A DNA stretch of 64,000 bases from Tropicimonas sp. IMCC34043. GTDB lineage: Bacteria; Pseudomonadota; Alphaproteobacteria; Rhodobacterales; Rhodobacteraceae. A program made the translations under genes and the position numbers. The notes below the pieces were generated by a model, which worked only from the letters and a program-made list of their open reading frames with translations, was not told the origin of the DNA and made no database searches. Below are positions 3-27,374 of the stretch, in pieces (the stretch's first letter is position 1; each line of letters starts with the position of its first letter). Where the stretch lies: contig NZ_QMEK01000009.1 of NCBI RefSeq assembly GCF_003390845.1, positions 1-64,000 on the forward strand. Reading direction: 5' to 3'.

Positions 3-164
3 CGACATCGGGTCCTGCTGATGGATCACGACAAGATCGGTCGCTCGGCCCTGTACCGGATGGGCAGCGTGACCCTGTTCGACACGATCATCACCGACAA
101 CCCCCTGCAGCCCGACGAGATCGAGACGGCAGAGAAACTGGGCGTCGAGATCGTGGTGGCTTGA
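3..164 (+). CDS. DeoR-family transcriptional regulator, C-terminal end (partial)
   Basis: The frame is open from the window edge to a TGA at 162-164 and encodes about 53 residues. The sequence reads RHRVLLMDHDKIGRSAL, then a segment ending in the pattern F-D-T-I-I-T-D, then E-K-L-G-V-E-I-V-V-A. This is the usual end of the sugar-phosphate-sensing (DeoRC) domain, where 'D-x-S-K-x-G' and 'D-x-x-I-T-D' recur. The N-terminal helix-turn-helix lies outside the window, so the regulated pathway cannot be judged. It may belong to the core genome left of the integration junction. Family assignment is fairly sure; anything more specific is not. Confidence 0.75.
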   Translation, partial: RHRVLLMDHDKIGRSALYRMGSVTLFDTIITDNPLQPDEIETAEKLGVEIVVA

Positions 165-5029: not shown

Positions 5030-6163
5030 TCAGTTCGTGACTAGAAGGCGCCGTGGATACGTGGTGATCCGTTCCACGCCAGTCTTCGAGACGAGGATGG
5101 TTTCAGACATTCCGAATCCACGCGCCAGCACATAAGTGTGGAAAACCATGCCCTCCTCGAATGTCCACTCGGCTCCCGGGTGCGCCTCAAGCGGTTCGCC
5201 TCCATTCGGCTGAAGGATCAAGCCGACCGAATAAAACGTCTTGTTGGTGTAGGTTTCACGCAGTCCAGCGGAAAGCACGCCGTCGCGATAAATTGCATCG
5301 GGCACTGTGGCTGGGACGCCCGGTGCGACTTCCGCAATGGCGCGGTCCTGGATCTCGATGAGTGTTTCTGCCAGCCGATAGTCCTCGTCCTGTGCTTCGG
5401 CCACCCGGATCGGCCGCATGAAACGGGCGTGGTAGTGATGGTTATTCGGCGTGACTTCCAATTGAACGATGTCGCCTCGCTCCAGAACTCGGTTCGAATA
5501 TCCGCCGTGGAGGTGATAGGCCCGCTCCCCCGACGAGAGGACGCCTGGGCCGGGAAGATCGGATCCCGAACGGATCATCGCTGCGCAGATCTCGGCAGCC
5601 ATCTCACGCTCACTGACGCCCACACCAGCGGCATCCAGACCGGCCTGCATGCCTGCCTCGGCGGCACGGGCAGCGACGCGCTGATAGGCAATCTCGGCAT
5701 CCGACTTGATCAATCGCATCCCTGCGACGAGGTCGGTCTCGTCTGAAAACATGCAGTTGGGCATCGCAGTGCGGATCGCTTCCCAGCGGAGAGCGTTCAG
5801 CACCCAGGACCCCATCTCGACTCCAATGGCCGAGGCTTTGCCGATGCGGGACGTGATCGCCTGTACCGCTACTGCGGTTCGGTTGTCGCTGTCGGTCCAC
5901 ATGACCCGATCCGAAAAGACGCAGGTGCTGTCGAGGTAATATTCTTCTACATCGCGACAAAAGAGGGTCGGTTCGCCCTCGGCGGGAATGATGGCAAACT
6001 GGAAAGTGCCGTAGGCGCGGGTGAAATAACCGGTAACCCAGGTCACCGTCTCCGGTTGGAAAGCCAATAGCGCATCCAGGCCCCGAGCCCGCAGCTTTTC
6101 TTGCACACGCGCCAGCCGGGCGCGGTATTCCGCTGGCTTGAACCAATATTTCGTCTCGACCAT
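5030..6163 (-). CDS. M24 (creatinase/ectoine-hydrolase-like) hydrolase, paralogue 1
   Basis: A 377-residue two-domain protein: a creatinase N-terminal domain (about 10-135, with R-G-L-D-A-L-L-A-F and V-T-G-Y) and a pita-bread M24 domain (about 150-370). The aminopeptidase metal ligands are absent. The usual Asp..Asp stretch reads I-V-Q-L-E-V-T-P-N-N-H-H-Y, and the usual His stretch reads F-Y-S-V-G-L-I-L-Q-P-N-G-G-E. A late Glu in M-S-E-T-I-L-V is kept. Creatinase and ectoine hydrolase (DoeA/EutD) are the known metal-poor M24 enzymes and open C-N bonds in guanidino or cyclic amidine compounds. It is the last gene of an operon with a glutamine amidotransferase, an M20 hydrolase and gntR. Exact substrate unknown. 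Confidence 0.85.
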   Translation of the reverse strand: MVETKYWFKPAEYRARLARVQEKLRARGLDALLAFQPETVTWVTGYFTRAYGTFQFAIIPAEGEPTLFCRDVEEYYLDSTCVFSDRVMWTDSDNRTAVAVQAITSRIGKASAIGVEMGSWVLNALRWEAIRTAMPNCMFSDETDLVAGMRLIKSDAEIAYQRVAARAAEAGMQAGLDAAGVGVSEREMAAEICAAMIRSGSDLPGPGVLSSGERAYHLHGGYSNRVLERGDIVQLEVTPNNHHYHARFMRPIRVAEAQDEDYRLAETLIEIQDRAIAEVAPGVPATVPDAIYRDGVLSAGLRETYTNKTFYSVGLILQPNGGEPLEAHPGAEWTFEEGMVFHTYVLARGFGMSETILVSKTGVERITTYPRRLLVTN

Positions 6164-6180
6164 GGGGAATCCTTTCTGCG

Positions 6181-6885
6181 TCAGCCTTGCCGAACCATCT
6201 CGGCAAAGCGGGTGAGCATTGACTTGGCCTCTTGGGCCTCGTGGGCGCTGGCGATCAGATCGGATATCTCGGCGCCGTCCTTCTCCATCCGCTCCCGGTT
6301 CTGTTCAAACCAAACCGGCGCTTGTTCCTTCGTCACTTCGGGGTGCCCCTGGATACCCCAGGCCGGCGCCTTGGCGTAGCGCCATACCTGGTTCGGGCAG
6401 AGATCAGAGGAGGCCAGGATCACCATGTCGGGATGCTCGGCGCGCACCTCGTCATTGTGCCAGACGAACATGCTCACTGTGTCCTTCCATTCCGCGGCCA
6501 ACGGGTCCGTGGCGCAAGCATCGGTGACCGCGAGATCCTTGTAGCCGATTTCACAGAAAGACCGCCGGAAGACCTGATCCCGTCCGCAAAGTGCCGAGGC
6601 AAGGATTTGGCTGCCGAAGCAGATCCCGAGCATCGGGATTTCCCTTTCCGCCGCTTCCCTGATCAGATCGTGCTCGCGATCGATGAAGGGGATGTCTTCG
6701 TAGGCGCCATGCGGGCTGCCTGAGAGGAATATTCCATCATAGCCATCGAGGTTTTCGGGGAACTGCATGTCGTATGCCCAGTAACGATCGACGGCGAGTC
6801 CCCAGCCTTCGAAGCGCTCGTCGAGCTTTGCCACCGTTTGAAGACTGCGGCCATTGCCAAGGTAAAGAAGACGTTTGGGGGACAT
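6181..6885 (-). CDS. Class I glutamine amidotransferase-like hydrolase
   Basis: This 234-residue protein is a free-standing GATase1 domain. The nucleophile elbow is G-I-C89-F-G-S-Q and the catalytic His and Glu are in Q-G-H181-P-E183-V-T, so the triad is complete. It lacks a synthase partner domain, which places it with GMP-synthase-like amidotransferases and gamma-glutamyl hydrolases acting on small gamma-glutamyl or amide substrates. It lies 17 bp upstream of the M24 gene and downstream of an M20 hydrolase in the same operon, so a role in freeing ammonia or glutamate from a pathway intermediate is plausible but inferred. The ATG at 6885 starts the family's first beta strand directly. Confidence 0.85.
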   Translation of the reverse strand: MSPKRLLYLGNGRSLQTVAKLDERFEGWGLAVDRYWAYDMQFPENLDGYDGIFLSGSPHGAYEDIPFIDREHDLIREAAEREIPMLGICFGSQILASALCGRDQVFRRSFCEIGYKDLAVTDACATDPLAAEWKDTVSMFVWHNDEVRAEHPDMVILASSDLCPNQVWRYAKAPAWGIQGHPEVTKEQAPVWFEQNRERMEKDGAEISDLIASAHEAQEAKSMLTRFAEMVRQG

Positions 6886-6971
6886 TTGGTTTCCTTGAAA
6901 TTCTGGTCATTTTCGGTTTGACCACCCCATTTTCGGGGCAGCGTCGCGCGTCTGTGAGGAACGCACGGGTA

Positions 6972-8261
6972 TCAGTCAGGTTCAGGAGGACCCGACCAGC
7001 TTTCGCACAGAGCGCAGAGCAGGCGCGCCGCCTGTGCGAAATCATCAATATCCATGGACTCATCCGGGTTGTGGCTGCCGTTGCGGTTGCGAATGAAAAG
7101 CATCGCGGTTGGAATTCCTTGCCGCGCAAAGACGGCGGCGTCGTGGCCCGCGCCACTGGCCATGCGCCGAGCCGGGATGGCGAGCGCATCAGCGAGTTGC
7201 TCCATCTGGGCGAGAATGGCTTTGTTCATACGCGCGGGGTCGGATCCGGTTTCGTCTCCGAGATCAAAATTCGTGCCAGTTCGGAGTTCGATCTGTGCGA
7301 CTACCCGGCGGAGTTCTGCGCGCATCATGTCCAGGGTGGTGTCACATTCGCTGCGGATGTCGAGAGCGAAATCGACCCTACCGGCTACCTTGGAAAAGGC
7401 CGCTTCCTCGGCAACGGTATTGACCTGCCCAAAGGTTACGGAAAGATCGTGTCCTTCTGTCTCCAACCGGGCCCAAAGCTCGTCGAGTATCGAGACAAGT
7501 TCAGCCGTCGCCCGAACGGCGTCGCGCCGAGTTTTGCGCGGTGTCGCACCGGAATGAGCGTATTCGCCGAAGCAGGCGGCATGACGGTGGCGAAAACTTC
7601 CGCGGATTCCTGTCACGAGGCCGACCGGCAGCCTTTCGTCAATCAGCACCGGGCCCTGTTCGATATGGGTCTCGACAAAGAGGGCGACGCGCGCGGGATC
7701 GAGCGCTCTGTCACCGCGCCGCAGCGCATTTGGATCGCCGCCTGCCTGCTCTATCGCTGCTCCGAGTGGAATTCCGGTATCGGACCGGCAAACGCCGTCG
7801 AGTTCCTCATCTGTAAGTGTGCCGAATGCAGCGCGGCTCCCGATATAGGACGCTCCGAACCAAGTGCTTTCTTCCGCTCGGATGGCTGTTACGACCAGGT
7901 CAACCGGTGGGCGCTGCCCAGCACGGTGAAAGCCGGAAGCGACCGCCAAACCGGCCAATACCCCGGCAGCACCATCGAAGTTCCCGCCTGAAGGCACGGA
8001 ATCCAGATGCGAACCGATCATGATTGCAGGGCCGTCGCCGCGCCCCCTCATCACCATATAGAGGTTGCAGGCCGCATCGGTATGACATTCCATACCGATC
8101 TTCTCTGCTTCCATGCGAACAAGGTCATGGGCGAATTGCTCGCCCATGCCATAGGAATCCCGGGTAATTCCAGAGGAGTCGCCGGTCTTTGCGCCCAGTT
8201 CGTCGAAAAGACGTTCTGTAAGGGCGATGTCCGGCACTATTTGGAAAGCAATGCAGGTCAT
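6972..8261 (-). CDS. Zn-dependent M20 hydrolase, N-carbamoyl-amino-acid/allantoate amidohydrolase type
   Basis: A 429-residue member of the HyuC/AllC/UreQ branch of M20. All metal-site motifs are seen: G-S-H-L-D-S-V near residue 83, F-D-G-A-A-G, R-A-E-E-S, H-I-E-Q-G-P, and G-A-G-H-D-A-A with a final S-H-N-P-D-E. This branch hydrolyses the carbamoyl or ureido group of N-carbamoyl-L-amino acids, beta-ureidopropionate or allantoate in the cytoplasm. Its start overlaps the gntR stop by 4 bp, so it is co-translated with the regulator. A second gene of the same type (28007-29299) sits in operon D. Motifs do not distinguish carbamoylase from allantoate hydrolase. Confidence 0.88.
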   Translation of the reverse strand: MTCIAFQIVPDIALTERLFDELGAKTGDSSGITRDSYGMGEQFAHDLVRMEAEKIGMECHTDAACNLYMVMRGRGDGPAIMIGSHLDSVPSGGNFDGAAGVLAGLAVASGFHRAGQRPPVDLVVTAIRAEESTWFGASYIGSRAAFGTLTDEELDGVCRSDTGIPLGAAIEQAGGDPNALRRGDRALDPARVALFVETHIEQGPVLIDERLPVGLVTGIRGSFRHRHAACFGEYAHSGATPRKTRRDAVRATAELVSILDELWARLETEGHDLSVTFGQVNTVAEEAAFSKVAGRVDFALDIRSECDTTLDMMRAELRRVVAQIELRTGTNFDLGDETGSDPARMNKAILAQMEQLADALAIPARRMASGAGHDAAVFARQGIPTAMLFIRNRNGSHNPDESMDIDDFAQAARLLCALCESWSGPPEPD

Positions 8262-8929
8262 CGGCGCGTCAGCCTCTGAATAATACTGTCGCGCACCTTG
8301 TCGAGGTGGTCGCGCATGGCGTCACGGGCGGCATCGACATCGCTGGAGGAAAGCGCCTCGACAATGCGGAGATGCTCGTCACAGGTGTCCGCCAACCGCT
8401 CCGGCATTGCGCGCAGGTCGAACATCTGGGTCTGCCGGCGCAGGTTCCGAATGATCTGACCCAACTGCGGGTTTCCGGCGGCCTCCGCGATCATGTCGTG
8501 CAAATCTTCGTCGACGCTGCGGACAGTGGCGCGGTCGGCCCGTGCGCCGAGTTCTGTCGCACGCAGCGACTCGAGCCGGGCGCGGATACTCGCAAGTTCC
8601 TCGGTTCGAATCCGACCTGCAGCCATTCGGGCCATTTCCGGTTCGAGCAGCGACCGGATCTGGAGCGCATCCATGTAATCTTCTATGTGCATCTGCCGGA
8701 CTTGGAGCCCACGACCGTGGCGCATGAGCAACCCTTCGCCTTCTAGAATGAGCAGGGCATCCCTCACTGGCGTTCGCGTCATCTCCAGCAATTCGGCCAG
8801 GCGGCGTTCGTTTACGAACTCACCGGGGCGAATCTCTCCCTTCTGAATCAGTTCGAGAATCTGCTCGTAGGCTTGCAAAGCGAGCCGTTTGTCCGGGATA
8901 TTCAGCAATTTTCCGTCTCCCCGCTGCAA
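8258..8929 (-). CDS. GntR-family regulator, FCD subgroup (A)
   Basis: 223 residues: a GntR winged helix at about 12-75 (Q-A-Y-E-Q-I-L-E-L-I, then M-T-R-T-P-V-R-D-A-L) and an all-helical FCD ligand domain at about 90-215. The FCD metal/ligand residues are present in V-D-E-D-L-H, D-E-H-L-R and M-R-D-H-L. FCD regulators usually sense carboxylic acids or amino acid derivatives and repress adjacent catabolic genes. It is the first gene of the minus-strand operon A and diverges from operon B, with the operator-like TGGTATACTGAAA at 9026-9038 between them. It is one of three FCD regulators in the island. Confidence 0.92.
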   Translation of the reverse strand: MQRGDGKLLNIPDKRLALQAYEQILELIQKGEIRPGEFVNERRLAELLEMTRTPVRDALLILEGEGLLMRHGRGLQVRQMHIEDYMDALQIRSLLEPEMARMAAGRIRTEELASIRARLESLRATELGARADRATVRSVDEDLHDMIAEAAGNPQLGQIIRNLRRQTQMFDLRAMPERLADTCDEHLRIVEALSSSDVDAARDAMRDHLDKVRDSIIQRLTRR

Positions 8930-9117
8930 CTGTTGCTCAAGTTTTGAGCGTTCACTCCGGATCTTCGCTCAGGAGGCAATCAAAATCCAAAAATGTCGAC
9001 GCTTGGCATTTATTGGGTTGATGGCTGGTATACTGAAATCTAACGTAAATTCAAATCGAGATTTCATCCATTTCCGCCACGTCGAACGGCGCGCGGAAAA
9101 CCGAATGAGGAACGCCG
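8930..9117. promoter_or_regulatory. Divergent promoter region A/B with operator TGGTATACTGAAA at 9026-9038
   Basis: The 188-bp gap between gntR-A and the M24-2 gene holds TGGTATACTGAAA at 9026-9038, an incomplete dyad centred on GTATAC. The same 13 bases recur exactly at 23001-23013 and, reversed, at 32801-32813, always in divergent promoters of this island. E. coli UxuR/ExuR sites (TTGGTATACCAA) and NanR sites (GGTATA) show that FCD-GntR proteins favour this core. The operator assignment is an inference from position and repetition. Confidence 0.75.
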
Positions 9118-10296
9118 GTGAGCATCACAGCCGAAGCCCTTCTGCCATTCCCGCGCGAGGAACATCTTGCCCGGCAGGAGCGGCTGCGTGCCGCCCTGCG
9201 CGAGCGTGGCGTCGACGCGATGCTGGTTTTCTCCCAGGAAAGCCTGTTCTGGCTCACCGGTTACGATTCCGGCGGCTTTGTGTTTTTTCAATGCGCGGTG
9301 GTCACAGCTGGCGATCGCCCTATCGTCCTGCTGACGCGAAAGCCGGACCTGCTGCAGGCGCAGATGACCTCCACCATCCGCGATATCCGGATCTGGTGGG
9401 ATAGCGACGACGCGAACCCGGCAGCCGATTTAAAGGATATCCTCTCCGAACTCGGCCTTGCCGGTGGGCGTGTCGCCATCGAACTCAATACCCACGGGCT
9501 CACCGGCTGGAACCTCTGGCGTTGCCAGCAGACTTTTGGCGACTGGTGCCAGCTCGAGGATGATGGCCATCTTATCCGCAAATTGCGGGTGGTGAAATCT
9601 TCTGCCGAACTGGACATCATGCGGGAGGCGGGCAAGATCCTCGACCGTTCTCTCGAAGCAGTGATCGCCGCCGCCGCGCCCGGTCGGCTCGACAGCGACC
9701 TAAAGGCTGCCTACCTCACCTCGATCCTTGGCGACGGGGCGGACATGCCGCCCAACGCCCCGATCTTCAATTCTGGCGAGCGCGCGGTCTTCGGGCGCGG
9801 GGTCACCAAGCCCCGCAGGCTGGAGGCGATCGACCAGGTGCTCGTCGAGTACCCGGTGGCCTTCCGGCACTACAACGTGAAGACCGAGTGGACGATCCTG
9901 CTTGGAAACGTTCCCGACCAGCAGCGCCGCATGTACGACGTCGCGCGCGAGACACTGACCCGGATGACCGACCTTGCGCGCCCCGGCATATCGCTCGGCG
10001 AGATTTTCGATGCCTATGCCGATGGGCTCGACCGGGCCGGCTTTGCGAAATCGCGATATGGCGCAACGGGTTACTCGGTGGGAATTTCCTATGCGCCGAC
10101 CTCGATGGACGTACCGCCCATGATCTACGCCGGAAATGCTACAATCTGCGAACCGGGAATGACCTTGTTCTATCATGTGATGAACGGGGACGGAGACAGC
10201 GGCCTAACCATGGGGGTAGGGCATACGCTCGTCGTCACCGAGGGGGCGCCGGAGATCCTGACCGGACTTCCGGACGAACTGACCGTCATCACCTGA
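9118..10296 (+). CDS. M24 creatinase-like protein, paralogue 2
   Basis: 392 residues from a GTG start preceded by GAGGA. The N-terminal creatinase domain contains R-G-V-D-A-M-L-V-F-S-Q-E-S and W-L-T-G-Y-D-S-G-G; the C-terminal part has the M24 fold. None of the five aminopeptidase metal ligands is recognisable: the Asp stretch is V-L-V-E-Y-P-V-A-F-R-H-Y-N, the His stretch G-Y-S-V-G-I-S-Y, and the last Glu is replaced in G-V-G-H-T-L-V-V. It is most like paralogue 3 (16598-17812); both have D-V-P-P-M-I-Y plus G-N. It opens operon B ahead of a peptide-type ABC transporter, so it probably acts on the imported compound. A binding or scaffold role cannot be excluded. Confidence 0.85.
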   Translation: MSITAEALLPFPREEHLARQERLRAALRERGVDAMLVFSQESLFWLTGYDSGGFVFFQCAVVTAGDRPIVLLTRKPDLLQAQMTSTIRDIRIWWDSDDANPAADLKDILSELGLAGGRVAIELNTHGLTGWNLWRCQQTFGDWCQLEDDGHLIRKLRVVKSSAELDIMREAGKILDRSLEAVIAAAAPGRLDSDLKAAYLTSILGDGADMPPNAPIFNSGERAVFGRGVTKPRRLEAIDQVLVEYPVAFRHYNVKTEWTILLGNVPDQQRRMYDVARETLTRMTDLARPGISLGEIFDAYADGLDRAGFAKSRYGATGYSVGISYAPTSMDVPPMIYAGNATICEPGMTLFYHVMNGDGDSGLTMGVGHTLVVTEGAPEILTGLPDELTVIT

Positions 10297-10390
10297 GCCA
10301 CTCCATCCATACCCTACACGACCGCGTTCATCGCAAGCCCAACCGCCCGCCGCAGCGAACAGCGGCGACATCCAGCAAGGAATTGACCAA

Positions 10391-11932
10391 ATGTCCTATT
10401 TCACCCTGACACGCCGCCACGTCCTCATGGGCATGGCCGCAGCTGCGACGCTCCCGTCCGTGTCCTTCGGCCAGAGTGGAACGCCGATCTCCGGCGGCAC
10501 GCTCAAGATCAGCCATTCCACCCGGATCGCCACGCTGAACGTGCTCTCGCTCTCGGGCCCGGCGGAATACCCCTGTATCGACATGCTCTATTCCGGTCTC
10601 ACCCGGACCGGTCTGGACAACCAGCCGCATCCCGATCTCGCCACCTCCTGGGAGGCCAACGAGGATGCAACCGAATTCACCTTCTACCTGCGTGATGGCG
10701 TGACCTTCCATGACGGCACCCCATTCACCTCCGCGGATGTCGTTGCCACTTTCGAGGCGATCCTGAACCCCGACATCGCCTCCTCGGCCCGCTCGGTGCT
10801 GACCATGGTGGACAAGATCGAGGCGGTGGACGACCTGACGGTGAAGTTCATCCTTTCCGCGCCTTTTGCCGACCTGCCGTACTCCACCTCGCATGCCAAC
10901 GCGCGCATCCTGTCCAAGGCCGCGCTCGAGGGCGATCTGTCCGCGCTCGATACCACTGCCAACGGCACTGGCCCGTTCAAGCTGGAAACCTATGACAGCG
11001 CGCGGATTGTTCGTCTGGTGAAGAACGAGAACTACTACAAGCCCGGCCAGCCCTATCTGGACGCGGTGGAGATGATGCTCTTCCCCGATCTCGCCGCCGA
11101 GACTGCGAATTTCCTCTCCGGCACAACCGACGTGATGCTTACGGTGCAGCAGGCCGCCTATGCACGTATCGCCGAAAGCGCGGGGATCGAGGCGCAGCGC
11201 GTGAGTTCCGGCCGCTATGTCTGCATCGTGATGCGCCAGGATCAGGAACCCTGGAGCGACGTCCGCGTGCGCCAGGCTCTTGGGCTTGCCATCGACCGTC
11301 AGCTTCTGGTGGACATCATCCTCGAAGGTCTCGGGCGTCCGGCCTACGACTCGATCGTCGCGCCGGAAATCGAGTACTACACCGACAAGCCCGAGATCAT
11401 GTACGATCCCGAAGGCGCCAAGGCACTGCTGGCCGAAGCTGGTTATCCCGACGGGATCAAGGCCACGATTGTCGCCTCGGACCGCCCCGCGATCCGTGCC
11501 CAGACCGCCATCGCACTTCAGCAGACCGCGGCCGCAGCCGGCTTCGATCTCGAGATCAAGACCATGCCGCATGACACCTACCTCGCCGAGGAATGGATGA
11601 AGGGCGATTTCTACATCGGCTACTGGGGCATGCAGCCGACGATCGACGCGACCTACAACCTTCTTCTCACCTCGGAGGCGTCCTACCAGGACACCGAATG
11701 GAAGAATGCCGAGTTCGACTCGCTCGTTGCCGAAGGCCGCGCCACCATCGACCCGGCCAAGCGGGCCGAAATCTATGCCAAGGCGCAGGAGCTGGAGCTG
11801 GCTGACAAGCCCTATATCGTTCCGTTCTTCGAGGATGTCCTGACAGCCTCCAGTGAAGCGACGAAGGAGTGGAAGATCGCGCCGATCTCGCGCTTCTACT
11901 TCGTCGAAGACGTCTGGCTGGACAAAGCCTGA
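10391..11932 (+). CDS. ABC transporter solute-binding protein, dipeptide/nickel type (SBP family 5)
   Basis: A 513-residue periplasmic binding protein. It starts with a Tat-like signal, T-R-R-H-V-L-M-G-M-A-A-A-A-T-L-P, cleaved near S-F-G-Q. The mature part shows the family 5 hallmarks I-S-G-G-T-L-K, L-A-T-S-W-E, F-Y-L-R-D-G-V-T-F-H-D-G-T-P-F and W-S-D-V-R-V-R-Q-A-L-G-L-A-I-D-R. Such proteins capture di/oligopeptides, glycosides, opines or other polar solutes for the cognate permeases, which follow immediately. The substrate is unknown; neighbouring amidohydrolase-like genes favour a peptide-like or amide compound. The start has AAGGAA upstream. Confidence 0.92.
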   Translation: MSYFTLTRRHVLMGMAAAATLPSVSFGQSGTPISGGTLKISHSTRIATLNVLSLSGPAEYPCIDMLYSGLTRTGLDNQPHPDLATSWEANEDATEFTFYLRDGVTFHDGTPFTSADVVATFEAILNPDIASSARSVLTMVDKIEAVDDLTVKFILSAPFADLPYSTSHANARILSKAALEGDLSALDTTANGTGPFKLETYDSARIVRLVKNENYYKPGQPYLDAVEMMLFPDLAAETANFLSGTTDVMLTVQQAAYARIAESAGIEAQRVSSGRYVCIVMRQDQEPWSDVRVRQALGLAIDRQLLVDIILEGLGRPAYDSIVAPEIEYYTDKPEIMYDPEGAKALLAEAGYPDGIKATIVASDRPAIRAQTAIALQQTAAAAGFDLEIKTMPHDTYLAEEWMKGDFYIGYWGMQPTIDATYNLLLTSEASYQDTEWKNAEFDSLVAEGRATIDPAKRAEIYAKAQELELADKPYIVPFFEDVLTASSEATKEWKIAPISRFYFVEDVWLDKA

Positions 11933-11943
11933 GGTCCTGACCA

Positions 11944-12894
11944 GTGAGCCTCGCCTATCTTCTTCGCCGCCTCGGAGCGGTCCTGATCGTGCTTTGCGTC
12001 GTGTCTGTCACGGTGTTCGCGATCACCGCCGTGCTGCCGGGGAATGCCGCCCTGATGATCCTTGGCGAAAACGCCTCCGCCGAGAACCTCGCTGCAATGG
12101 AACGGCAGCTCGGTCTCGACCGGCCTGTGGTCGTCCAATATTTCGACTGGATCTCAGGTGTGGTTCAGGGAGATTTCGGCACGTCGCTGCGTTTGCAGCT
12201 GCCGGTTTCCCAAGTGGTGGGCGAGGCTTTCTGGAACTCCATGTCCCTTGCGGTCATCGCCCTTGTGGCGGTGACCCTCATCGCCATTCCGATGGGCACC
12301 TTTGCCGCGCTCAAGCGCGGCTCTATCTGGGACCTGTTCATCGGGCTCTTTTCCTATGTGGGAACGGCCTTGCCGGAGTTCGTGACCGCGACTCTGCTGC
12401 TCGTCTTCTTCGCCGCGCCGTCGCGGCAATACCTGCCGGCGGGCGGCTTCGTCGCTCCGGGCGAGGACCTTTCGGGCTTTTTCGTTCACGCGATCCTTCC
12501 CGCTACCACGCTCGGTCTGATCTTGATGGCGCATATCTCGCGGCAGGTCCGTAGCGAACTGGCGGACGTCCTGTCCTCGGATTTCGTTCGCGCAGCGCGT
12601 CTCAAGGGCATTCCCGAAGGCCGGGTAATCCGGCGCCATGCTCTGCCCAACTCCCTTACTCCGGCCATTGCCGTCATCTCGCTCGATATCGGCTACCTGC
12701 TCGGAGGCATCATCGTGGTCGAAGAGATCTTCGCCTGGCCCGGTCTCGGGCGGTTACTGATCTATGCGCTTCAGAACCGAGACCTGCCCGTGATCCAGGC
12801 CGTGACCCTGTTGTTGGCCGTCGTCTATGCGTTGTCGAACCTCGTTGCCGACATCGTTATCGCCAAACTCGACCCGCGGGTGCGTTATGCCTAG
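11944..12894 (+). CDS. ABC transporter permease, DppB type
   Basis: 316 residues from a GTG at 11944, 12 bp after the binding-protein stop. The protein has the DppB/OppB layout: an N-terminal membrane helix, a periplasmic domain (L-G-L-D-R-P-V-V-V-Q-Y) and a five-helix core. The cytoplasmic coupling loop is seen at R-A-A-R-L-K-G-I-P-E-G and the later G-G-I-I-V-V-E-E-I-F-A-W-P-G-L-G-R-L signature is complete. It forms the inner-membrane channel with the DppC-type protein that follows, with which its 3' end overlaps by 8 bp. Confidence 0.93.
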   Translation: MSLAYLLRRLGAVLIVLCVVSVTVFAITAVLPGNAALMILGENASAENLAAMERQLGLDRPVVVQYFDWISGVVQGDFGTSLRLQLPVSQVVGEAFWNSMSLAVIALVAVTLIAIPMGTFAALKRGSIWDLFIGLFSYVGTALPEFVTATLLLVFFAAPSRQYLPAGGFVAPGEDLSGFFVHAILPATTLGLILMAHISRQVRSELADVLSSDFVRAARLKGIPEGRVIRRHALPNSLTPAIAVISLDIGYLLGGIIVVEEIFAWPGLGRLLIYALQNRDLPVIQAVTLLLAVVYALSNLVADIVIAKLDPRVRYA

Positions 12895-13705
12895 AGCCCT
12901 GAAATCTCCGACCGGGCTTATCGGCACGGTCCTGCTTCTCATCGTCTTTACCGCAGCCCTGTTCGGGCCGCTCATCGCCCCCTACGATCCACAGTTGTTT
13001 CATGTCCAGGCCCGCCTTCAGGGGCCGAGCAGGGAATTTTGGCTCGGCACCGACCAATATGGCCGCGACCTGCTTTCGCGTTTGCTGAACGGCGCCCCGG
13101 CGACGGTTCTTTTCGGCCTCGGCGCGACGGTTCTCGGTGTCGGTGCGGGCTCGATCATCGGCGTGATCGCGGGCGTTGCCGGCGGCCGGACGGACAGCAT
13201 CGTCATGCGCATCCTTGACGGGATGCTGGCGATGCCGGAGCTACTATTCACGCTGTTGATCGTAAGTTTTCTAGGTGGCGGTACAGCCCAAGCCATGCTC
13301 GCGGTCGCAGTGACCTTCACGCCGGGCATGGCACGGATTTCCCGCTCGGCGGTCCTATCGGTGCGCACGCGCGAATACGTACTTGCCGCGCAAGCCCGGG
13401 GCGAGAGCCAAGCCTGGATCGTCGGTCGCGAAGTGCTTCCGAATGCTGTCGCTCCAATAATCGTCGAGGCAACGATCCGGGTGAGCTTTGCGATCATGAT
13501 CGGCGCAACCCTCGGCTTTCTTGGCCTCGGTGCACAGCCGCCCTCCACCGAGTGGGGGCTGATGGTGGCGGAGGCACGCCAGTTCATGTTCCGAAATCCC
13601 TGGTGCGTTGCGGTGCCCGGCCTTGCCATCGCCATCACTGCGATGGGCTTCAACCTGTTCGGCGACGCCTTGCGCGACGTCTTCGACCCGAAGAGGAACC
13701 ACTGA
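12887..13705 (+). CDS. ABC transporter permease, DppC type
   Basis: 272 residues. The ATG at 12887 lies inside the last codons of the previous permease gene (8-bp overlap), which supports coupling and rejects a longer upstream frame. It has the DppC N-terminal helix and the L-G-T-D-Q-Y-G-R-D-L-L-S-R motif after it, then the EAA-type loop (A-L-G fold region with A-Q-A-R-G-E-S) and the final L-G-F-L-G-L-G-A-Q-P-P plus E-W-G signature. It pairs with the DppB-type subunit to form the channel. Its stop overlaps the ATPase start as TGATG. Confidence 0.93.
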   Translation: MPRALKSPTGLIGTVLLLIVFTAALFGPLIAPYDPQLFHVQARLQGPSREFWLGTDQYGRDLLSRLLNGAPATVLFGLGATVLGVGAGSIIGVIAGVAGGRTDSIVMRILDGMLAMPELLFTLLIVSFLGGGTAQAMLAVAVTFTPGMARISRSAVLSVRTREYVLAAQARGESQAWIVGREVLPNAVAPIIVEATIRVSFAIMIGATLGFLGLGAQPPSTEWGLMVAEARQFMFRNPWCVAVPGLAIAITAMGFNLFGDALRDVFDPKRNH

Positions 13706-15381
13706 TGAGCGCCCTCATCCGGCCTGTCCTCGAGATCCATAAGTATTCACTCTCCTATCGCACGGATGCCGGCGAGGTCATGGCGCTCAAGGACGTCGAC
13801 CTGAAAATTCAGAAGGGAGAGACGCACGCCCTCGTCGGTGAAAGCGGCTCAGGGAAATCATCGCTCGCTTGGGCAGTCACGCGCTACTTGGCCGAGAATG
13901 CAAGAGATGCCGGCGGCGCAATCCTGCTCTCGGGCGAGGACATGATCGGCAAGTCCCGGGCCGAACTGGAAGCTCTGCGCGGAAAGCGTATCGCGATGGT
14001 GTTTCAGGATCCGGCCTCTTCACTAAACCCCACAATGCGGCTCGGCGAGCAGCTTGCCGAAGTGCTGATCCGCCACCGTGGTCTGTCCAAGGCCGAGGCA
14101 TGGAAGGAAGGCGAGGCCGCGCTCTCGCGAACCGGCATCGCCAAGCCCGCGCAGATGATGCAGCGGTTCCCGCACGAAGCCTCGGGCGGCGAGAAACAGC
14201 GGGTCGTCATTGCGGCGGCCTATGCCTGCAACCCGGAACTGATCATCTTCGACGAGCCCACGACTGCGCTCGACATCCTCACCGCGAACCAGATCCTAGA
14301 CCTTTTCGTCAAGCTGCGGGAGGAAACCGGCGTCGCCGCGCTCTACATCTCCCACGATCTCGGGCTTGTCTCCCGGATCGCGGATCGGGTCTCGGTCATT
14401 CACAAGGGAAAGATCGTGGAAACCGGCCCCGTCGAGGAGGTGTTCCACCGCCCGCAGGATCCCTATACCCGTCGTCTGCTGGCGGCCCTGCCGCGCCCCG
14501 AGGACCGGCTTGCGGTGTCGGCGCCGAGCACCGATGCCGCGATATTCAGGGCTGAGGGTATCACTGTCGAATACGGCAAGCCCGGTTTCCTGACCCGGTT
14601 GCTGGACAAGAATGCCGCCGCTCATGTCGGCGCACGGGATATCTCACTGAAAGTGCGGCCCGGTGAATTGCTGGGGATTGTCGGCGAAAGCGGCTCGGGC
14701 AAGTCGACCATTGCCAAGGCTGCCACGGGGCTCCACCCCTTCGCTGGCGCGGTGGAGTTCGATGGCCGTCGCTTCAATCGACGCGAGGATTTCGACCGGG
14801 CCTACCGGCGGGACGTGCAGATTGTTTTTCAGCACCCGGATGCGAGTCTCAACCCGCGCGAGACCATCGGCGGCATCCTTTCGAGACCTCTCAAGCTCTA
14901 CAACATCGTACCGCGCGCGGAAGTCGCCAAGAGGGTGGCGGAACTGCTCGAGATGGTGCTGTTGCCACGGGAATTTGCGCAGCGCTATCCGCACCAGCTC
15001 TCAGGCGGCGAGAAGCAGCGCGTTGCCATCGCCAGGGCCTTTGCTGCCGAACCGAAACTGGTGATCTGCGACGAGATCACGGCGGCGCTCGACGTTTCCG
15101 TTCAGGCCGCGGTGGCGCGGCTACTCGTCGATCTGCAGGAACGGTCCGGCGCCGCCTGTATCTTCATCACCCATGACCTGAACCTGATCCGCCAGCTTGC
15201 CCACCGTATCGTGGTCATGCAGCGCGGTGAACTGGTCGATACCTTCGACGTCGAAGAGGCCGAAAGCCCGGAACGCGCACCCTATACCCGCGCGTTGCTC
15301 GACGCCTTGCCCGTTCCCCATGACGTGACCGAAGTGGATCACCAGGCACGTGATTTCCTTACTGAAGGCCCAACCGCATGA
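13705..15381 (+). CDS. Dual-domain ABC transporter ATPase (DppD-DppF fusion type)
   Basis: 558 residues holding two complete ATPase modules. Module 1 has Walker A G-E-S-G-S-G-K-S-S (about 45-53), signature S-G-G-E-K-Q-R and Walker B L-I-I-F-D-E-P-T-T. Module 2 has G-E-S-G-S-G-K-S-T, S-G-G-E-K-Q-R and L-V-I-C-D-E-I-T. In module 2 the usual P after the catalytic Glu is Ile, a conservative change, and the His switch is present (F-I-T-H-D-L). A single fused polypeptide powers the transporter formed by the two permeases. Its stop overlaps the M20 gene by 4 bp. Confidence 0.93.
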   Translation: MSALIRPVLEIHKYSLSYRTDAGEVMALKDVDLKIQKGETHALVGESGSGKSSLAWAVTRYLAENARDAGGAILLSGEDMIGKSRAELEALRGKRIAMVFQDPASSLNPTMRLGEQLAEVLIRHRGLSKAEAWKEGEAALSRTGIAKPAQMMQRFPHEASGGEKQRVVIAAAYACNPELIIFDEPTTALDILTANQILDLFVKLREETGVAALYISHDLGLVSRIADRVSVIHKGKIVETGPVEEVFHRPQDPYTRRLLAALPRPEDRLAVSAPSTDAAIFRAEGITVEYGKPGFLTRLLDKNAAAHVGARDISLKVRPGELLGIVGESGSGKSTIAKAATGLHPFAGAVEFDGRRFNRREDFDRAYRRDVQIVFQHPDASLNPRETIGGILSRPLKLYNIVPRAEVAKRVAELLEMVLLPREFAQRYPHQLSGGEKQRVAIARAFAAEPKLVICDEITAALDVSVQAAVARLLVDLQERSGAACIFITHDLNLIRQLAHRIVVMQRGELVDTFDVEEAESPERAPYTRALLDALPVPHDVTEVDHQARDFLTEGPTA

Positions 15382-16601
15382 CCGACACCCTTTCGCTCGC
15401 CCGTTCCATCGACGAGGCGGCTTGCTTGGAAACTCTGGCCGACATGGTCCAGCACAAGAGCTACAGCGAGACGCCGGGCGAGCGGGCGCTGGCCGAGCAT
15501 ATGGTCGAGATCATGCGGGATATCGGTCTCGATGAGGCGTATTTGATGCCGGTCGAAGGAGACCGCGTGAACGCCATCGGCGTCTGGCGCGGCACGGGCG
15601 GCGGTAAGAGCCTGCTCTTCAATGGCCATCTCGATACCAACCCCGTGACCGAGGGGTGGACGGTGGACCCCTGGGCGGGGCTCATCGACGAGGAATTCAT
15701 TTACGGTATCGGCGTGTCCAACATGAAAGCCGGCGATGCCGCCTATCTGTGTGCGGTCCGTGAATTGATCCGGAAGGGCGTCCGGCTCAAGGGCGATGTG
15801 ATCCTTACCTTCGTCATAGGTGAGTTGCAGGGAGGCGTCGGTACGCTCGCGGCGGTGAAATCGGGCCTGCGGGCGGATTACTTCATCAATTCTGAGCCAT
15901 CGGACCTTCAGGCCATCACCATGCATGCCGCGGCCTTCACCTTCGTGATCGAACTGGAGGGCATCACGCGCCATCTGTCGAAACGCGAGGAAGCGGTGGA
16001 CGCGATCCGCGCGGCCTGCGACCTGATCCCGGAACTGACCGACCTCACATTCTCGGACGCCCCGACCGAAGAACACCGCTCGATCAACCGCGTCCATGTC
16101 GGCGTCATCAAGGGCGCACTTGGACGTGAGCTGCACGATTGGCGCCCGCCGCAGGTGGCTGATTTCGCGGAGTTGAAGGGGTCGGGGCGCTACGGTCCCG
16201 GTCAGACCGAAGAAAACGCCCTGGCGGATCTGCGCGTCGTCCTTGACCGGTTGATGAAACGCTGGCCCGGGCTCAAGGCAACAATCCGGACAGAAAAGGC
16301 CGCAGGCCGCCCGATCATGCCGGCCTTCGAAGTTTCGAAGGAGAGCCGTATTGTTAGCTCGATCAACGCTGCCTACAAGGCGCTGCGCGGCGTGGATCAG
16401 CCCACCGGGGCGATCCCGCCGCCCGGCTATTTCGGCACCGATGCCGGCCATCTCTATGCCGAGGGCGGCATGGAGGGCGTTGTCTGCGGGCCGGGCGGAA
16501 AATTCAACACCATGCCCGATGAACGGGTGGAGATCACCGATTACCTCGATTGCGTCCGGCTCTACCTCATGACCATCTGCGATATCTGCGAGGCGCAATG
16601 A
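15378..16601 (+). CDS. M20-family (ArgE/DapE-like) protein with altered metal ligands
   Basis: 407 residues with the M20 two-domain layout (catalytic about 1-180 and 300-407, lid in between). The first motif is intact (F-N-G-H-L-D-T), but the bridging-Asp motif, usually D-M-K-G-G, reads S-N-M-K-A-G. The D-E-E motif reads G-E-L-Q-G-G-V-G-T, keeping the catalytic Glu but losing the ligand Glu. The final His motif, usually A-H-x-P-D-E, reads N-T-M-P-D-E. So three of five expected ligands differ. It may be a metal-independent or single-metal hydrolase, or a non-catalytic relative. It is coupled to the ABC ATPase before it and the M24 gene after it (4-bp overlaps), implying a dedicated role in the same pathway. 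Confidence 0.85.
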   Translation: MTDTLSLARSIDEAACLETLADMVQHKSYSETPGERALAEHMVEIMRDIGLDEAYLMPVEGDRVNAIGVWRGTGGGKSLLFNGHLDTNPVTEGWTVDPWAGLIDEEFIYGIGVSNMKAGDAAYLCAVRELIRKGVRLKGDVILTFVIGELQGGVGTLAAVKSGLRADYFINSEPSDLQAITMHAAAFTFVIELEGITRHLSKREEAVDAIRAACDLIPELTDLTFSDAPTEEHRSINRVHVGVIKGALGRELHDWRPPQVADFAELKGSGRYGPGQTEENALADLRVVLDRLMKRWPGLKATIRTEKAAGRPIMPAFEVSKESRIVSSINAAYKALRGVDQPTGAIPPPGYFGTDAGHLYAEGGMEGVVCGPGGKFNTMPDERVEITDYLDCVRLYLMTICDICEAQ

Positions 16602-17812
16602 TCGACCTGGCCCAGGAGTATTCTGGCGCGACGCGCTCGGGGCGGACCGTCGCGCTCCGCTTTCCGGAGAGCGAGTATCGTGCGCGCCTTGCCAGGACCC
16701 GTACGCTAATGGTCGAACGCGGGCTCGATGCGCTTCTCGTTTTCGCGCAGGAGAGCCATTTCTACCTGACCGGTTTCGATACGGCGGGATACGTTTTCTT
16801 CCAGGTTGGCATTGTAACGGCAGACGACAGCCCGACGACAGTCCTGACGCGGACGCCCGACAAGCGGCAGGCCGAGACCAACTCGCTCTACGATGATGTG
16901 CGGATCTGGCTGAACACCGAGGATGCGAACCCGGCGGAGGATCTGCGCGGGATCTTGGCTGAAAAGGGTCTTGCGGGTGCGAAGATCGGCGTGGAATTCG
17001 CCACTTATGGCCTGACAGCCGCCAATGGACGGATGGTCGAGGCGGCGATGGTCGGGTTCTGCCAACTGGAGGATGCCTCGGACATCGTGCGTGGCCAGCG
17101 GCTGGTGAAATCCCCGCTGGAACTGGACTACACGCGCGCCGCGGGGGACCTCGCTGATGTCGCGACAATGGCCGCGATCGAGGCGGCGAAGCCCGGCGTC
17201 TACGATACCGCCCTGTCGGGAGCCGCCGTGACGGCGATGCTGTCGAAAGGGGCCGACATGCCCTCCGGCGGGCCGCTGGTCAACGTCGGCCCCCGAGCGC
17301 TCTACGGACGTGGCATCGGGGGCGCGCGGGCCATCGAACCCGACGATCAGGTACTGATCGAGCTCGCGGGCTCTGCCTGCCGGTATCACGTGGTGATCGA
17401 GCACACCGTTTCGATTGGCCGCACCGACCCGCGGCAACTTAGCCAGATGGGTGTCGCCATCGAGGCGCTGGAACGGATCAAGGAGGCCGCCGTGCCGGGC
17501 GAGCGGCTTGGTACGCTCGACGACATTCACCGCAAGGTGCTCGACGATGCCGGTTTCGCCAAGGCGCGCTACGCGGCCTGCGGCTATGCGCTTGGCTGTA
17601 CCTTCAAGCCGACATGGATGGACGTGCCTCCGATGATCTACACAGGGAACCCACTGGTTCTCGCACCCGGCATGGTCTTCTTCGTCCACATCATGATTCC
17701 GGATGGAGATACCGGTCTGGTCGCTGGCGTTGGGCAGACCTTCGCCATCGGCGAAGCGGGCAGGGGGGTAGAGACCTTCAGCGCTCTGCCACTGCAACTT
17801 TGGACCGTGTGA
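16598..17812 (+). CDS. M24 creatinase-like protein, paralogue 3
   Basis: 404 residues starting at an ATG that overlaps the M20 stop (ATGA). The creatinase N-domain shows R-G-L-D-A-L-L-V-F-A-Q-E-S and Y-L-T-G-F-D-T-A-G. In the M24 domain the Asp stretch is Q-V-L-I-E-L-A-G-S-A-C-R-Y-H, the His stretch G-Y-A-L-G-C-T-F and the last Glu is lost (G-V-G-Q-T-F-A-I), so no metal site is evident. It closely resembles paralogue 2 at the other end of the same operon, including D-V-P-P-M-I-Y-T-G-N. The pair may form a heterodimer, as M24 creatinases are dimers with shared active sites, but that is inference. Confidence 0.85.
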   Translation: MIDLAQEYSGATRSGRTVALRFPESEYRARLARTRTLMVERGLDALLVFAQESHFYLTGFDTAGYVFFQVGIVTADDSPTTVLTRTPDKRQAETNSLYDDVRIWLNTEDANPAEDLRGILAEKGLAGAKIGVEFATYGLTAANGRMVEAAMVGFCQLEDASDIVRGQRLVKSPLELDYTRAAGDLADVATMAAIEAAKPGVYDTALSGAAVTAMLSKGADMPSGGPLVNVGPRALYGRGIGGARAIEPDDQVLIELAGSACRYHVVIEHTVSIGRTDPRQLSQMGVAIEALERIKEAAVPGERLGTLDDIHRKVLDDAGFAKARYAACGYALGCTFKPTWMDVPPMIYTGNPLVLAPGMVFFVHIMIPDGDTGLVAGVGQTFAIGEAGRGVETFSALPLQLWTV

Positions 17813-17898: not shown

Positions 17899-19116
17899 TC
17901 AGGCGCGGTATCTGTCCAGAAGCGTCGTCAAACGATCGACCGCAGCCACGGCGGCGTCGTGGTCTTGCGAGAAGTTGAGGCGAATGCTGTCGCCCGTATG
18001 AGGGCTGAACTCGGTTCCCGGCGTTACGATGACCCCGGCTTGCAGCCTCAGTGCCCGAACGAAGTCGGTAGGGTCTATGGTCAATGGAGGCAGTTGCGGG
18101 AACAGGTAGCTGCCTGCTTCCGGCATGCGCGCAGCGCAACCTCCAATTGTCCGAAAGCGAGTCAGAAGTTCATCCCGGATCGTTTGATGCTGGCGCGTCC
18201 TTTCGGTCATCCAGCCGTCGGGCTCATTGAACCATGTGTGCAGGACTGCCTGGGAATATCCGCTCGCGCGGAGCGAGACGATGGCCTGAAGCTGCTCCAT
18301 GCGGGAGATGATGGCACTCGAACCGAAAGCGACGCCGAGGCGAAAGCCGCTCAGCGATTCCGTTTTCGACGGACCCATGATCGTCACGACCTTCTCGGGA
18401 TCCACGTCCGACGCTCGCAAATGCGTGTAGCGTACGCCCTCGTAGCAGAGGCGGGAATAGAGCTGGTCCACGATCACTGTCGCCCCGTAGCGCGTGGCGA
18501 GCGCCGCGATCTGGCCGATCTCCTCCGGCGAATAGACAACTCCAGTCGGATTGTTCGGGTTGGAGAAAAGGAAGGTCTTCACGCCGGCGCGAAAGACATT
18601 CTGCAGTTCATCGAGGTCGATCCCCGCCGTCCCGGATGCCTGTTCGCCATAGCGCAGCTGAACTGGATGGATCTCGGCGCCAAGGAATACCGCGAGTTTT
18701 CGGTTGGCGAAGTAATCCGGCTGCACGATGGCAATCTTGTCGCCCGCGCCCACGGTGGCGGCAACTGCCAGGAACAGGGCTCCCTGCGTTCCGGGGGTGA
18801 CGATCAGCCCGTCGCCGGCATCGACTGTTGCTCCGGTGAATTCCGCCAGACGGACGGCAAGCGCGTCACGAATGCCCGCATCGCCCCGGTATTCCGTGTA
18901 GGCTTGCGCGCCGCCGCGTTCAAAACCGTTCACGAACGCACCAAGCGCGCCCGGTGTCGGCGCATGCGCATCGACGTCGCCATGCGAGAAATCGACCGGC
19001 CTCCCGGGAAGGGGGGGACCCTTGAGAAACGAACTGGCGTCCGCTGATGTCTGGCGGCTTTCCTGCCCCGGTGCGTTGTCCGTCGCAAGCTCTGCGAATT
19101 TCTCCAGGATCGACAT
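17899..19116 (-). CDS. PLP-dependent class I/II aminotransferase
   Basis: 405 residues with fold-type I features: the substrate strip N-P-N-N-P-T-G near 187-193, D217 (pyridine nitrogen) and Y220 in V-D-Q-L-Y, the Schiff-base lysine K251 in G-P-S-K-T-E-S, and R259 in G-F-R-L-G, with the C-terminal carboxylate Arg in S-I-R-L-N-F. This subgroup transfers amino groups from aspartate-like or aromatic amino acids. It is transcribed divergently from a LysR gene 105 bp away and lies among other amino acid genes, so it probably deaminates a product of the pathway. The precise donor is not predictable. Confidence 0.9.
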   Translation of the reverse strand: MSILEKFAELATDNAPGQESRQTSADASSFLKGPPLPGRPVDFSHGDVDAHAPTPGALGAFVNGFERGGAQAYTEYRGDAGIRDALAVRLAEFTGATVDAGDGLIVTPGTQGALFLAVAATVGAGDKIAIVQPDYFANRKLAVFLGAEIHPVQLRYGEQASGTAGIDLDELQNVFRAGVKTFLFSNPNNPTGVVYSPEEIGQIAALATRYGATVIVDQLYSRLCYEGVRYTHLRASDVDPEKVVTIMGPSKTESLSGFRLGVAFGSSAIISRMEQLQAIVSLRASGYSQAVLHTWFNEPDGWMTERTRQHQTIRDELLTRFRTIGGCAARMPEAGSYLFPQLPPLTIDPTDFVRALRLQAGVIVTPGTEFSPHTGDSIRLNFSQDHDAAVAAVDRLTTLLDRYRA

Positions 19117-19221
19117 GTTTTTCCCGTCCTTTGTCCCGACTGTCTCGACAACGGTCCTAGAACTGCTGAACCCAAAAAAAAACTGTTTTTATGCTTCTTC
19201 AGACAGTAGAGAATCTATCTT

Positions 19222-20106
19222 ATGGAGATCCGGAATCTCGAAACATTCCTGGAAGTCGTCGAGCGTGGCTCGGTCGCCGAGGCTGCCCGAAGGATGAACC
19301 TGACACCGGCCGCGCTCTCGCAGCGTCTGCTCGTTCTGGAACAGGAGTTGGGCCAAACGCTCGTGACGCGTGTCGGGCGCACGATGCAGCCAACCGAGGA
19401 AGGCCTCGCCATGCTTGCCGCTGCGCGCAGGGTCGTTTCCGGTGCGCGGGACCTTCGCGCTATCGCCGCCAATGGGGAACCAGCGGGACAACTTCGGCTG
19501 GGCGCCATCGCGACTTCAGTCACCGGCCTGCTGCCGGAGGTGATCGTCAACCTGAGCCAGGCGCATCCGTCCATCGAATACTTTGTTCAGCCCGGTTCTT
19601 CTGCGGATCTCTACCAATTCGTCATGGACGGCGATCTCGATGCTGCGATCATCGTCCGGCCCAACTTTGCGCTGCATAAGTCGTTGCACTGGCAGCGGCT
19701 GCGTACCGAACCGCTCGTCTTCCTTTCTCCCGAAGAGAGCGCTCCGGCGGACCCGCACGACCTGATGCGCGCAAAGCCTTTCATTCGGTATGATCGAAAT
19801 TCGTGGGGTGGGAGGATCATTGACCGTTACCTGCGCGCGCATGGCCTGGTCGTTAAGGAGTTCCTGGAACTCGACGGTCTCGAAGCGATTGCGGCCATGG
19901 TCAACCGTGGTGTGGGCGTCGCGCTCGTGCCGGATTGGATGCCGCCGTGGCCGGCGGGATTGCGTCTGCGCAAGACCATTGTGTCGGTCAGCGACAGTCG
20001 GGAAATTGGCGTTGTCTGGCGATCTGCTGGTGCCCGGAATGCCGCTGTCGGTGTATTCGTCGAAGCCTGCACGGCAGTAGTTGCTGATGCGACCTCACGC
20101 CTCTAG
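19222..20106 (+). CDS. LysR-family transcriptional regulator
   Basis: 294 residues. The N-terminal helix-turn-helix is M-E-I-R-N-L-E-T-F-L-E-V-V-E-R-G-S-V-A-E then A-A-R-R-M-N-L-T-P-A-A-L-S-Q-R-L, and the co-inducer domain follows from about residue 90. It faces away from the aminotransferase gene, with a 105-bp A/T-rich gap (a run of nine A, then CTGTTTTTATGC) likely to hold the shared promoters. It probably regulates the aminotransferase and perhaps the aspartate dehydrogenase downstream. Confidence 0.9.
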   Translation: MEIRNLETFLEVVERGSVAEAARRMNLTPAALSQRLLVLEQELGQTLVTRVGRTMQPTEEGLAMLAAARRVVSGARDLRAIAANGEPAGQLRLGAIATSVTGLLPEVIVNLSQAHPSIEYFVQPGSSADLYQFVMDGDLDAAIIVRPNFALHKSLHWQRLRTEPLVFLSPEESAPADPHDLMRAKPFIRYDRNSWGGRIIDRYLRAHGLVVKEFLELDGLEAIAAMVNRGVGVALVPDWMPPWPAGLRLRKTIVSVSDSREIGVVWRSAGARNAAVGVFVEACTAVVADATSRL

Positions 20107-22824: not shown

Positions 22825-23064
22825 GAGCTGATTCCGCTTCGGTGCCGCCGCTCTCAATTGGCGTTCCCGCGATGCCCGCTCCGATTTCTCTCAAATGGCG
22901 CCTGCCGAGTGTGCCAAGCCCGGTATTTTGTGCATAAAAAATGTGCAAAGTGATGGACGGACCGCAAATTTCTCGGCTAAGCTTACATATGGGATACTGT
23001 TGGTATACTGAAAATGCAAGCGACAACGGGCTTCCAAAGCACACCAACCAGAAAGAGATCTGCG
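22825..23064. promoter_or_regulatory. Divergent promoter region with operator TGGTATACTGAAA at 23001-23013
   Basis: The region separates the dapA-like/SDR operon from the TRAP operon. It contains the same 13 bases found at 9026 and 32801, 52 bp before the TRAP binding-protein start. A related half copy, GGATACTG at 22992-22999, sits directly beside it and could be a second contact site for the regulator. Confidence 0.75.
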
Positions 23065-24703: not shown

Positions 24704-24745
24704 TTGCCGGTCAAACCCGGCAATCAAAGCAATGAAAGACAATAG

Positions 24746-27367: not shown

Positions 27368-27374
27368 GGGCCTG

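Follow-up and report, generated by a model that had tools for sequence, protein, structure and literature searches.

NanR is an FCD-type GntR regulator, and the palindromic form of the UxuR/ExuR operator is TGGTATACCA. The closest described systems are outlined first. Sites of the FadR subfamily follow the consensus TKGT-N2/3-ACMA, with 2 nt for UxuR and 3 nt for ExuR, and TGGTATAW repeats are given for NanR (PMC4494728). UxuR and ExuR of E. coli are paralogous GntR regulators, for which homo- or heterodimers were reported (PMC12842492). The operator of E. coli NanR is repeated in three operons and consists of GGTATA direct repeats, three of which are bound by three NanR homodimers (PMC8012715). 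Atu1419 of Agrobacterium fabrum is a VanR-type FCD GntR repressor with bound zinc (PMC7797058). PxpR of Corynebacterium glutamicum is a GntR-type repressor of the pxp 5-oxoprolinase and transporter genes (PMC13274462).

The 13-mer in the window and in the genome

The DNA analysed here, in the following called the window, comprises 64,000 nucleotides (contig C16:1-64000) of a 4.6-Mb genome in 16 contigs. A scan of the window revealed exact copies of the 13-mer TGGTATACTGAAA at 9026-9038 (+), 23001-23013 (+) and 32801-32813 (-), which are referred to as sites 1 to 3. A sequence-only reading had reported three copies with these coordinates and strands, placed each island copy between divergent genes and given T or A as the base that follows AAA, all of which was confirmed (the bases are T, A and T). 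Gene families of operons A to E were assigned by HMM scans, and the features of the island are as follows.

5030-8261, minus strand: structural genes of operon A (M20 hydantoinase/carbamoylase family, class I glutamine amidotransferase-like, M24 peptidase family)
8258-8929, minus strand: FCD1 (with operon A), GntR and FCD domains
9018-9023, plus strand: predicted -35 (TTGATG) of the operon B promoter, by consensus match
9026-9038, plus strand: site 1, 13-mer in the divergent region of FCD1 and operon B, pointing to operon B
9041-9046, plus strand: predicted -10 (TAACGT) of the operon B promoter, 17 bp from the -35, by consensus match
9118-17812, plus strand: operon B (M24-type, DoeA-like; Opp/Dpp-type ABC transporter; M20 deacylase; M24)
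22991-23019, minus strand: predicted promoter to the DHDPS/SDR genes (TTGCAT, 17 bp, TATCCC), by consensus match
22994-23020, plus strand: site 2 block (ATACTG...TGGTATACTGAAA...CAAG), before the TRAP operon and divergent from a DHDPS-family gene
23065-26044, plus strand: operon C (TRAP transporter: binding protein, small protein, large permease)
26186-32667, minus strand: operon D (PxpB, PxpC, FCD3, 2-hydroxyacid dehydrogenase family, M20, FCD2, M24-type)
27375-28010, minus strand: FCD2, GntR and FCD domains
30243-30896, minus strand: FCD3, GntR and FCD domains
32794-32820, minus strand: site 3 block, between pxpB (-) and pxpA (+)
32795-32823, plus strand: predicted promoter to pxpA (TTGCCA, 17 bp holding the operator, TATTCG), by consensus match
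32937-34575, plus strand: operon E (PxpA, LamB/YcsF; class IV aminotransferase)

The HMM scan assigned a double ATPase to the ABC transporter of operon B. The gene at 24055-24699, which has no NCBIfam match, is taken as the TRAP small permease due to its position, and the start of operon C was read from the sequence as ATG 23065 rather than 23014. Between operons B and C an aminotransferase gene and a divergent LysR gene (17899-20106) are encoded, which may form a regulatory pair of their own; the same pair is found near the C/D modules of G006, G058, G146, Mesorhizobium, P. aminovorans and P. denitrificans. Downstream of operon E a 716-aa ORF (34963-37113, minus strand) matches GmrSD_N and GmrSD_C (type IV restriction) and contains an IS110-transposase-like DEDD stretch at residues 47-151. 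This unusual combination may be a fusion, or the start may be placed too far upstream.

At up to two mismatches the mean expected number of matches in the window is 0.18. Three or more matches at this threshold occurred in 0 of 100 shuffles, and the 64,000-nt window holds no fourth copy at up to two mismatches. The three sites are identical in 13 of 13 core positions. Beyond the conserved block described below they are pairwise alike in only 12-23 of 54 positions on each flank, which indicates that they are not copies of one long repeat. The 13-mer at 9026 sits in a different longer sequence than the copies at 23001 and 32801, and the 20-bp sequence ATACWGNTGGTRTACYGAAA finds, at up to three mismatches, sites 2 and 3 alone in the genome (one match for the reversed control).

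All three exact copies of the genome are located in the island, and at up to two mismatches the scan added one copy with one mismatch and 13 with two. The reversed pattern, searched as a control in the 4.6-Mb genome, gave 13 matches at up to two mismatches, so that the inexact matches are about background; with 14 outside the island versus 13 for the control they were rejected as extra regulon members. Thirteen of these 14 overlap a mechanical ORF of at least 120 aa, although in a GC-rich genome this counts for little. The one-mismatch copy and TGGTATACCAAAA, both on contig C5, were likewise rejected, as both overlap mechanical ORFs.

Many copies outside promoters were what the sequence-only reading had named as speaking against it. 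None of the exact kind exists in the own genome. The exact 13-mer is found in 48 of 394 family genomes, with 55 copies versus 11 of the control. Classed from their flanks, the 30 fetched loci comprise 21 in one shared coding context, 3 at island genes and 6 elsewhere, the loci matching island proteins being L108, L116 and L117. The shared context (L105-L107, L112-L114, L118-L131, L133) has the form TATCC..TGGTATACTGAAA..TTGAC within a long open frame and reads, by eye, GIPWYTE. This conserved coding sequence inflates naive motif counts, and with 21 of the 30 fetched loci in an unrelated coding context the family-wide excess was discarded as evidence for a regulon.

Conservation of the site with FCD2 and FCD3

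As proposed earlier, the island encodes three FCD regulators; the Pfam families PF00392 and PF07729 score above the gathering thresholds in FCD1, FCD2 and FCD3, as is typical of the FadR subfamily of GntR proteins. The Asp/His set of the FCD metal site is invariant in the alignments of FCD1 (D140, H144, H186, H208; 7 rows), FCD2 (D128, H132, H174, H196; 9 rows) and FCD3 (D126, H130, H172, H194; 9 rows). The nearest solved structures by sequence are the GntR-family entries 7xp0, 7u5q, 3fms and 6z74. In the regulator tree (n=50) FCD2 and FCD3 form clean groups (19 rows each, SH-aLRT 100), and FCD1 lies on the FCD3 side.

The motif was searched in 9 genomes of the genus and FCD1 in 120 relatives; 394 family genomes were searched with FCD3 and with an FCD1 alignment and 385 genomes of the class with FCD3. 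Named genomes and plasmids were also searched (13 plasmid matches, H9, H11 and H13 being outside the fetched set). The fetched modules with both FCD2 and FCD3 number 21 and come from Rhodobacterales and Hyphomicrobiales: the window, G006, G058, G146, G386, G318, G205, G204, G313, Mangrovicoccus, a Mesorhizobium, Paracoccus aminovorans, P. denitrificans, Salipiger CCB-MM3, Rhizobium lusitanum, R. tumorigenes, R. rhododendri, R. sullae, Agrobacterium tumefaciens AF1/95 and two Shinella. They are not independent, as near copies are included (window/G006, R. tumorigenes/R. rhododendri, the two Shinella), and they were chosen by regulator apart from L057 of G006, which was chosen by motif.

FCD2 and FCD3 are paired in all 21 modules, and each divergent pxpA region holds the 13-mer at up to two mismatches: 14 sites are exact, 5 have one mismatch (G318, G313, P. 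aminovorans, two Shinella) and 2 have two (G205, Mesorhizobium). The conservation in relatives on which the sequence-only reading had made its proposal depend is thus found for operons C, D and E. Outside G006 the module regulators are only about 46-65% identical to those of the window, yet the site is kept. The 24 stretches around the modules (477 kb) contain 19 exact copies and 10 dinucleotide shuffles of them none. FCD3 was found at 50% identity or more in 8 of the 394 family genomes, six of which have the exact 13-mer in or beside the module; in G313 it is at the A/B site. The site follows the genes, as in Salipiger, which has two exact copies, one at pxpA/pxpB and one at a TRAP operon placed elsewhere.

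G204 keeps pxpA, FCD2 and FCD3, and an exact site lies upstream of its FCD3 gene. In the 32 kb around its module no TRAP, PxpB, PxpC, M20 or M24 relative was found at E<=1e-8, and an aminotransferase relative is about 10 kb away from the module, which is perhaps in decay or reuse. Its FCD3 (module at L140 11449-13788) is on a long branch of the regulator tree. The class-wide FCD3 search returned 5 of 385 genomes at the cut-off, namely the window, G086, G580, G654 and G731; the fetched stretches of the latter four contain no FCD2 and FCD3 module. In G086 an FCD1-like gene, an M20 gene and the site TGGTATACCGCGA were seen.

Due to their constant occurrence in the 21 modules, and to G204, which keeps both with an exact site, FCD2 and FCD3 are the likeliest proteins to bind sites 2 and 3. 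These two sites share the conserved 27-bp block ATACwGnTGGTATACTGAAAtnnCAAG, which is absent from site 1. Twenty C/D-class sites were aligned, 4 near-duplicates having been dropped from 24. The core columns are partly fixed by the choice of sites with few mismatches; columns outside the 13-mer, which had no part in that choice, show ATAC at -6..-3 in 20 of 20 sites, G at -1 in 19 of 20, and CAA at +17..19 in 19, 18 and 18 of 20. The information falls mainly on ATAC-W-G-N-TGGTATACTGAAA-t-NN-CAAG, and columns -17, -16 and -11 to -8 contribute less. The shown columns beyond +20 reach at most 0.39 bit and columns -29 to -18 at most 0.24 bit. ATACwG, 11 bp from the ATACTG of the core, is a repeat of it.

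On its opposite strand the block has the sigma70-like form TTGnnn, 17 bp, TATnnn, directed towards pxpA or DHDPS and with GTATAC within the spacer. These -35 and -10 boxes are consensus matches picked after the alignment had been viewed, and for the predicted -10 boxes towards pxpA the match to TATAAT is mostly limited to its first three bases. CAA at +17..19 is present at 22 of 23 sites with a divergent pathway gene (the exception is G204) and at 0 of 7 without one, 6 of these 7 being from related rhizobia and a weaker R. rhododendri site with 4 mismatches being left out. With near-duplicates removed the counts are 18 of 19 versus 0 of 6 (Fisher p 4e-5), in a comparison framed post hoc. This distribution indicates that CAA is probably part of the divergent promoter. 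We had considered CAAG and ATAC as operator parts alike, which was given up since CAA tracks the divergent pathway gene and fits its -35. ATAC, which is kept with or without a divergent gene (without one, ATAC in 5 of 7 sites and ACAC in 2), is more likely an operator element.

Site 1 and the modules of operons A and B

Site 1 lacks ATACwG and CAAG, unlike sites 2 and 3, and the predicted promoter of operon B has the putative operator within its -35/-10 spacer. Sites of this class consist of a fixed TTGA, 17 or 18 bp and a TA-hexamer, with GTATAC in the spacer (15 of 15 sites). The TTGA is at -7 in 8 of 8 A/B sites and at -10 in 7 of 7 second sites of rhizobial modules. Those modules have a second divergent region between an M24 gene and an amino-acid ABC transporter (L241 16944-17149, L242 17624-17793, L244 16292-16449, L246 17585-17754, L247 17425-17617) with two operator-like sites, one per class, 145-193 bp apart, which resembles the 190 bp between the looping sites of Atu1419.

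Five A/B modules outside the clade of the window (G047, G256, G294, Rhizobium SSA_523 and Terrarubrum) have GGTATACC without TGAAA. The right half is TGAAA in the window and G313 and CAAAA in G318. Ending in AAA, it is found in 3 of 3 A/B modules whose genome also carries C/D, compared with 0 of 5 others; of these five, two were seen as the plasmid only, and three lack C/D as judged by the FCD3 search. The A/B modules of the window, G313 and G318 form one clade (100/100 support), so the AAA right half counts as one event. G313 has an exact A/B site and a C/D site with one mismatch. The A/B modules of G294, G256, SSA_523 and Terrarubrum include PxpBC and dehydrogenase relatives of their own, in that of G047 the 40 kb seen hold a dehydrogenase relative and no PxpBC, and neither was found within A/B of the window, G313 and G318. 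Genus searches for more A/B modules gave one of two genomes for G318 and one of three for G047, both being the query genomes themselves.

In G047, G256 and G294 FCD1 stays with A/B, and at E<=1e-25 the FCD3 search returns nothing but FCD1 itself. This linkage makes FCD1 the best candidate for binding site 1.

Comparison with known operators and scope of the regulon

We consider the 13-mer, with a probability of about 0.76, to be the core of an operator for the FCD-type GntR repressors of the island itself, FCD2 with FCD3 and FCD1. In operons C, D and E it would be read within the 27-bp block by the co-encoded FCD2 and FCD3, with GTATAC in the predicted -35/-10 spacer of at least the pxpA promoter and, at site 2, of that of the DHDPS gene. 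RNA polymerase would be blocked there as long as the repressor is bound, and a metabolite of the imported substrate would release it. In A/B the same core would be read by the paralogue FCD1 at a TTGA-N17/18-TA promoter. The location of GTATAC within a predicted sigma70 spacer in both site classes is expected of a steric repressor. The sequences themselves show that the site is conserved and linked to these genes, that it comes in two classes and that FCD2 is paired with FCD3. Binding, repression, the pairing of proteins with sites, the promoter boxes and the inducer are what we infer from them; as PxpABC, M20/M24 hydrolases and transporters are encoded, our guess for the inducer is a 5-oxoproline-like or N-carbamoyl/peptide-like compound.

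The sequence-only reading had likened GTATAC to the operators of UxuR/ExuR and NanR. This holds for the 2-nt GT-AC spacing of UxuR, but neither for the 3 nt of ExuR nor for the direct repeats of NanR (PMC4494728), and UxuR and ExuR serve hexuronate genes. At sites 1 to 3 the left TGGT and the N2 spacing match TKGT-N2/3-ACMA and the right ACTG does not, so the site is not a clean palindrome; ACCA is the right half in some FCD1-class relatives (G318, G047, G256, SSA_523, Terrarubrum). NanR has three GGTATA repeats (PMC8012715). Each window site has one GGTATA, with an upstream ATAC unit at sites 2 and 3, GGATAC at site 2 and GAATAC at site 3; two or more GGTATA direct repeats were found at none of the window sites. 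Atu1419 is alike in that a single catabolic region has identical GTATAC-core palindromes ATGTATACAT at several of its promoters, one of them placed between -10 and -35 and others overlapping -10 (PMC7797058). It differs in its genes and in being one regulator with a clean 10-bp palindrome (PMC7797058), compared with an asymmetric 27-bp block and two FCD proteins encoded together in the island. PxpR is a single regulator of the pxpTABC operon only, with an APC-type transporter and the inverted repeat agattgttcaacaatct as operator (PMC13274462), to which sites 1 to 3 show by eye no resemblance. Among the titles and abstract beginnings returned by the literature search, no description of the motif or of the gene set with a GntR regulator was found. 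The kind of regulator and operator is already known, and the regulon itself appears to be new as far as that search reached.

Other explanations have to be weighed against this operator. Chance hardly deserves consideration in view of the shuffles and the conservation across species. A decayed repeat or an old duplication of intergenic DNA, neither having a regulatory role, would account for the ATAC and CAAGCG flanks common to sites 2 and 3; both are nevertheless very improbable, since similarity ends at the block (12-23 of 54 positions per side) and the block, not its surroundings, is conserved across orders. We also regard it as improbable that the 13-mer is only a promoter element, with TGGTATACT as an extended -10 (TGnTATAMT) reading away from pxpA. 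TGn with a 5/6 match to TATAAT, the orientation away from pxpA in 21 of 21 modules and the weakly T-rich columns -17, -16 (12 and 10 of 20) and -11 (13 of 20), which might represent a poor -35 with a spacing of just 15 bp, fit such an element. On the other hand, G10 and AAA past the hexamer are as fixed as the hexamer, whose last T (position 9) is among the less fixed (16 of 20), no clear -35 is seen 16-18 bp upstream, in the FCD1 class the site is enclosed by TTGA and a TA-hexamer that are 17 or 18 bp apart (15 of 15), and the exact 13-mer is confined to the island within its own genome. The roles of promoter element and operator are compatible with each other.

The most serious alternative, although we think it unlikely, is that all three sites are served by a single regulator (one FCD protein or the pair), so that the 13-mer is the whole operator and A to E are one regulon. 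The identity of the three window sites, the exact A/B site of G313 beside a C/D site with one mismatch, and the lack of own PxpBC and dehydrogenase genes in A/B of the window, G313 and G318, as opposed to G294, G256, SSA_523 and Terrarubrum, point in this direction. The contrast in gene content is, however, incomplete due to G047, FCD1 keeps its linkage with A/B and the GGTATACC site in other lineages, site 1 is without ATACwG and CAAG, and the change of the A/B right half is limited to a single clade. Operons C, D and E are thus probably one regulon of the FCD2 and FCD3 pair, conserved together with its regulators. The claim that A to D form one regulatory system stands to this extent; A/B, having FCD1 and another operator class, would only possibly join, by virtue of the 13-mer shared in a single clade. 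A more speculative version of the operator reading, which we hold to be doubtful, makes FCD2 and FCD3 an obligate hetero-oligomer on the composite of ATACwG and TGGTATACTGAAA, one helical turn apart, and supposes that FCD1-controlled A/B lost its pxp genes and had its operator converted to the 13-mer, merging two circuits in the lineage of the window.

The analysis offers a concrete, testable regulon, with operator, regulators and target operons, for a module of PxpABC, M20/M24 enzymes and TRAP/ABC transporters, which is located on chromosomes and large plasmids in Alphaproteobacteria of two orders. It also offers two natural cases, one in which two FCD paralogues are kept together with one asymmetric operator in every fetched module, and one in which the operators of two modules look alike where the genome is shared.
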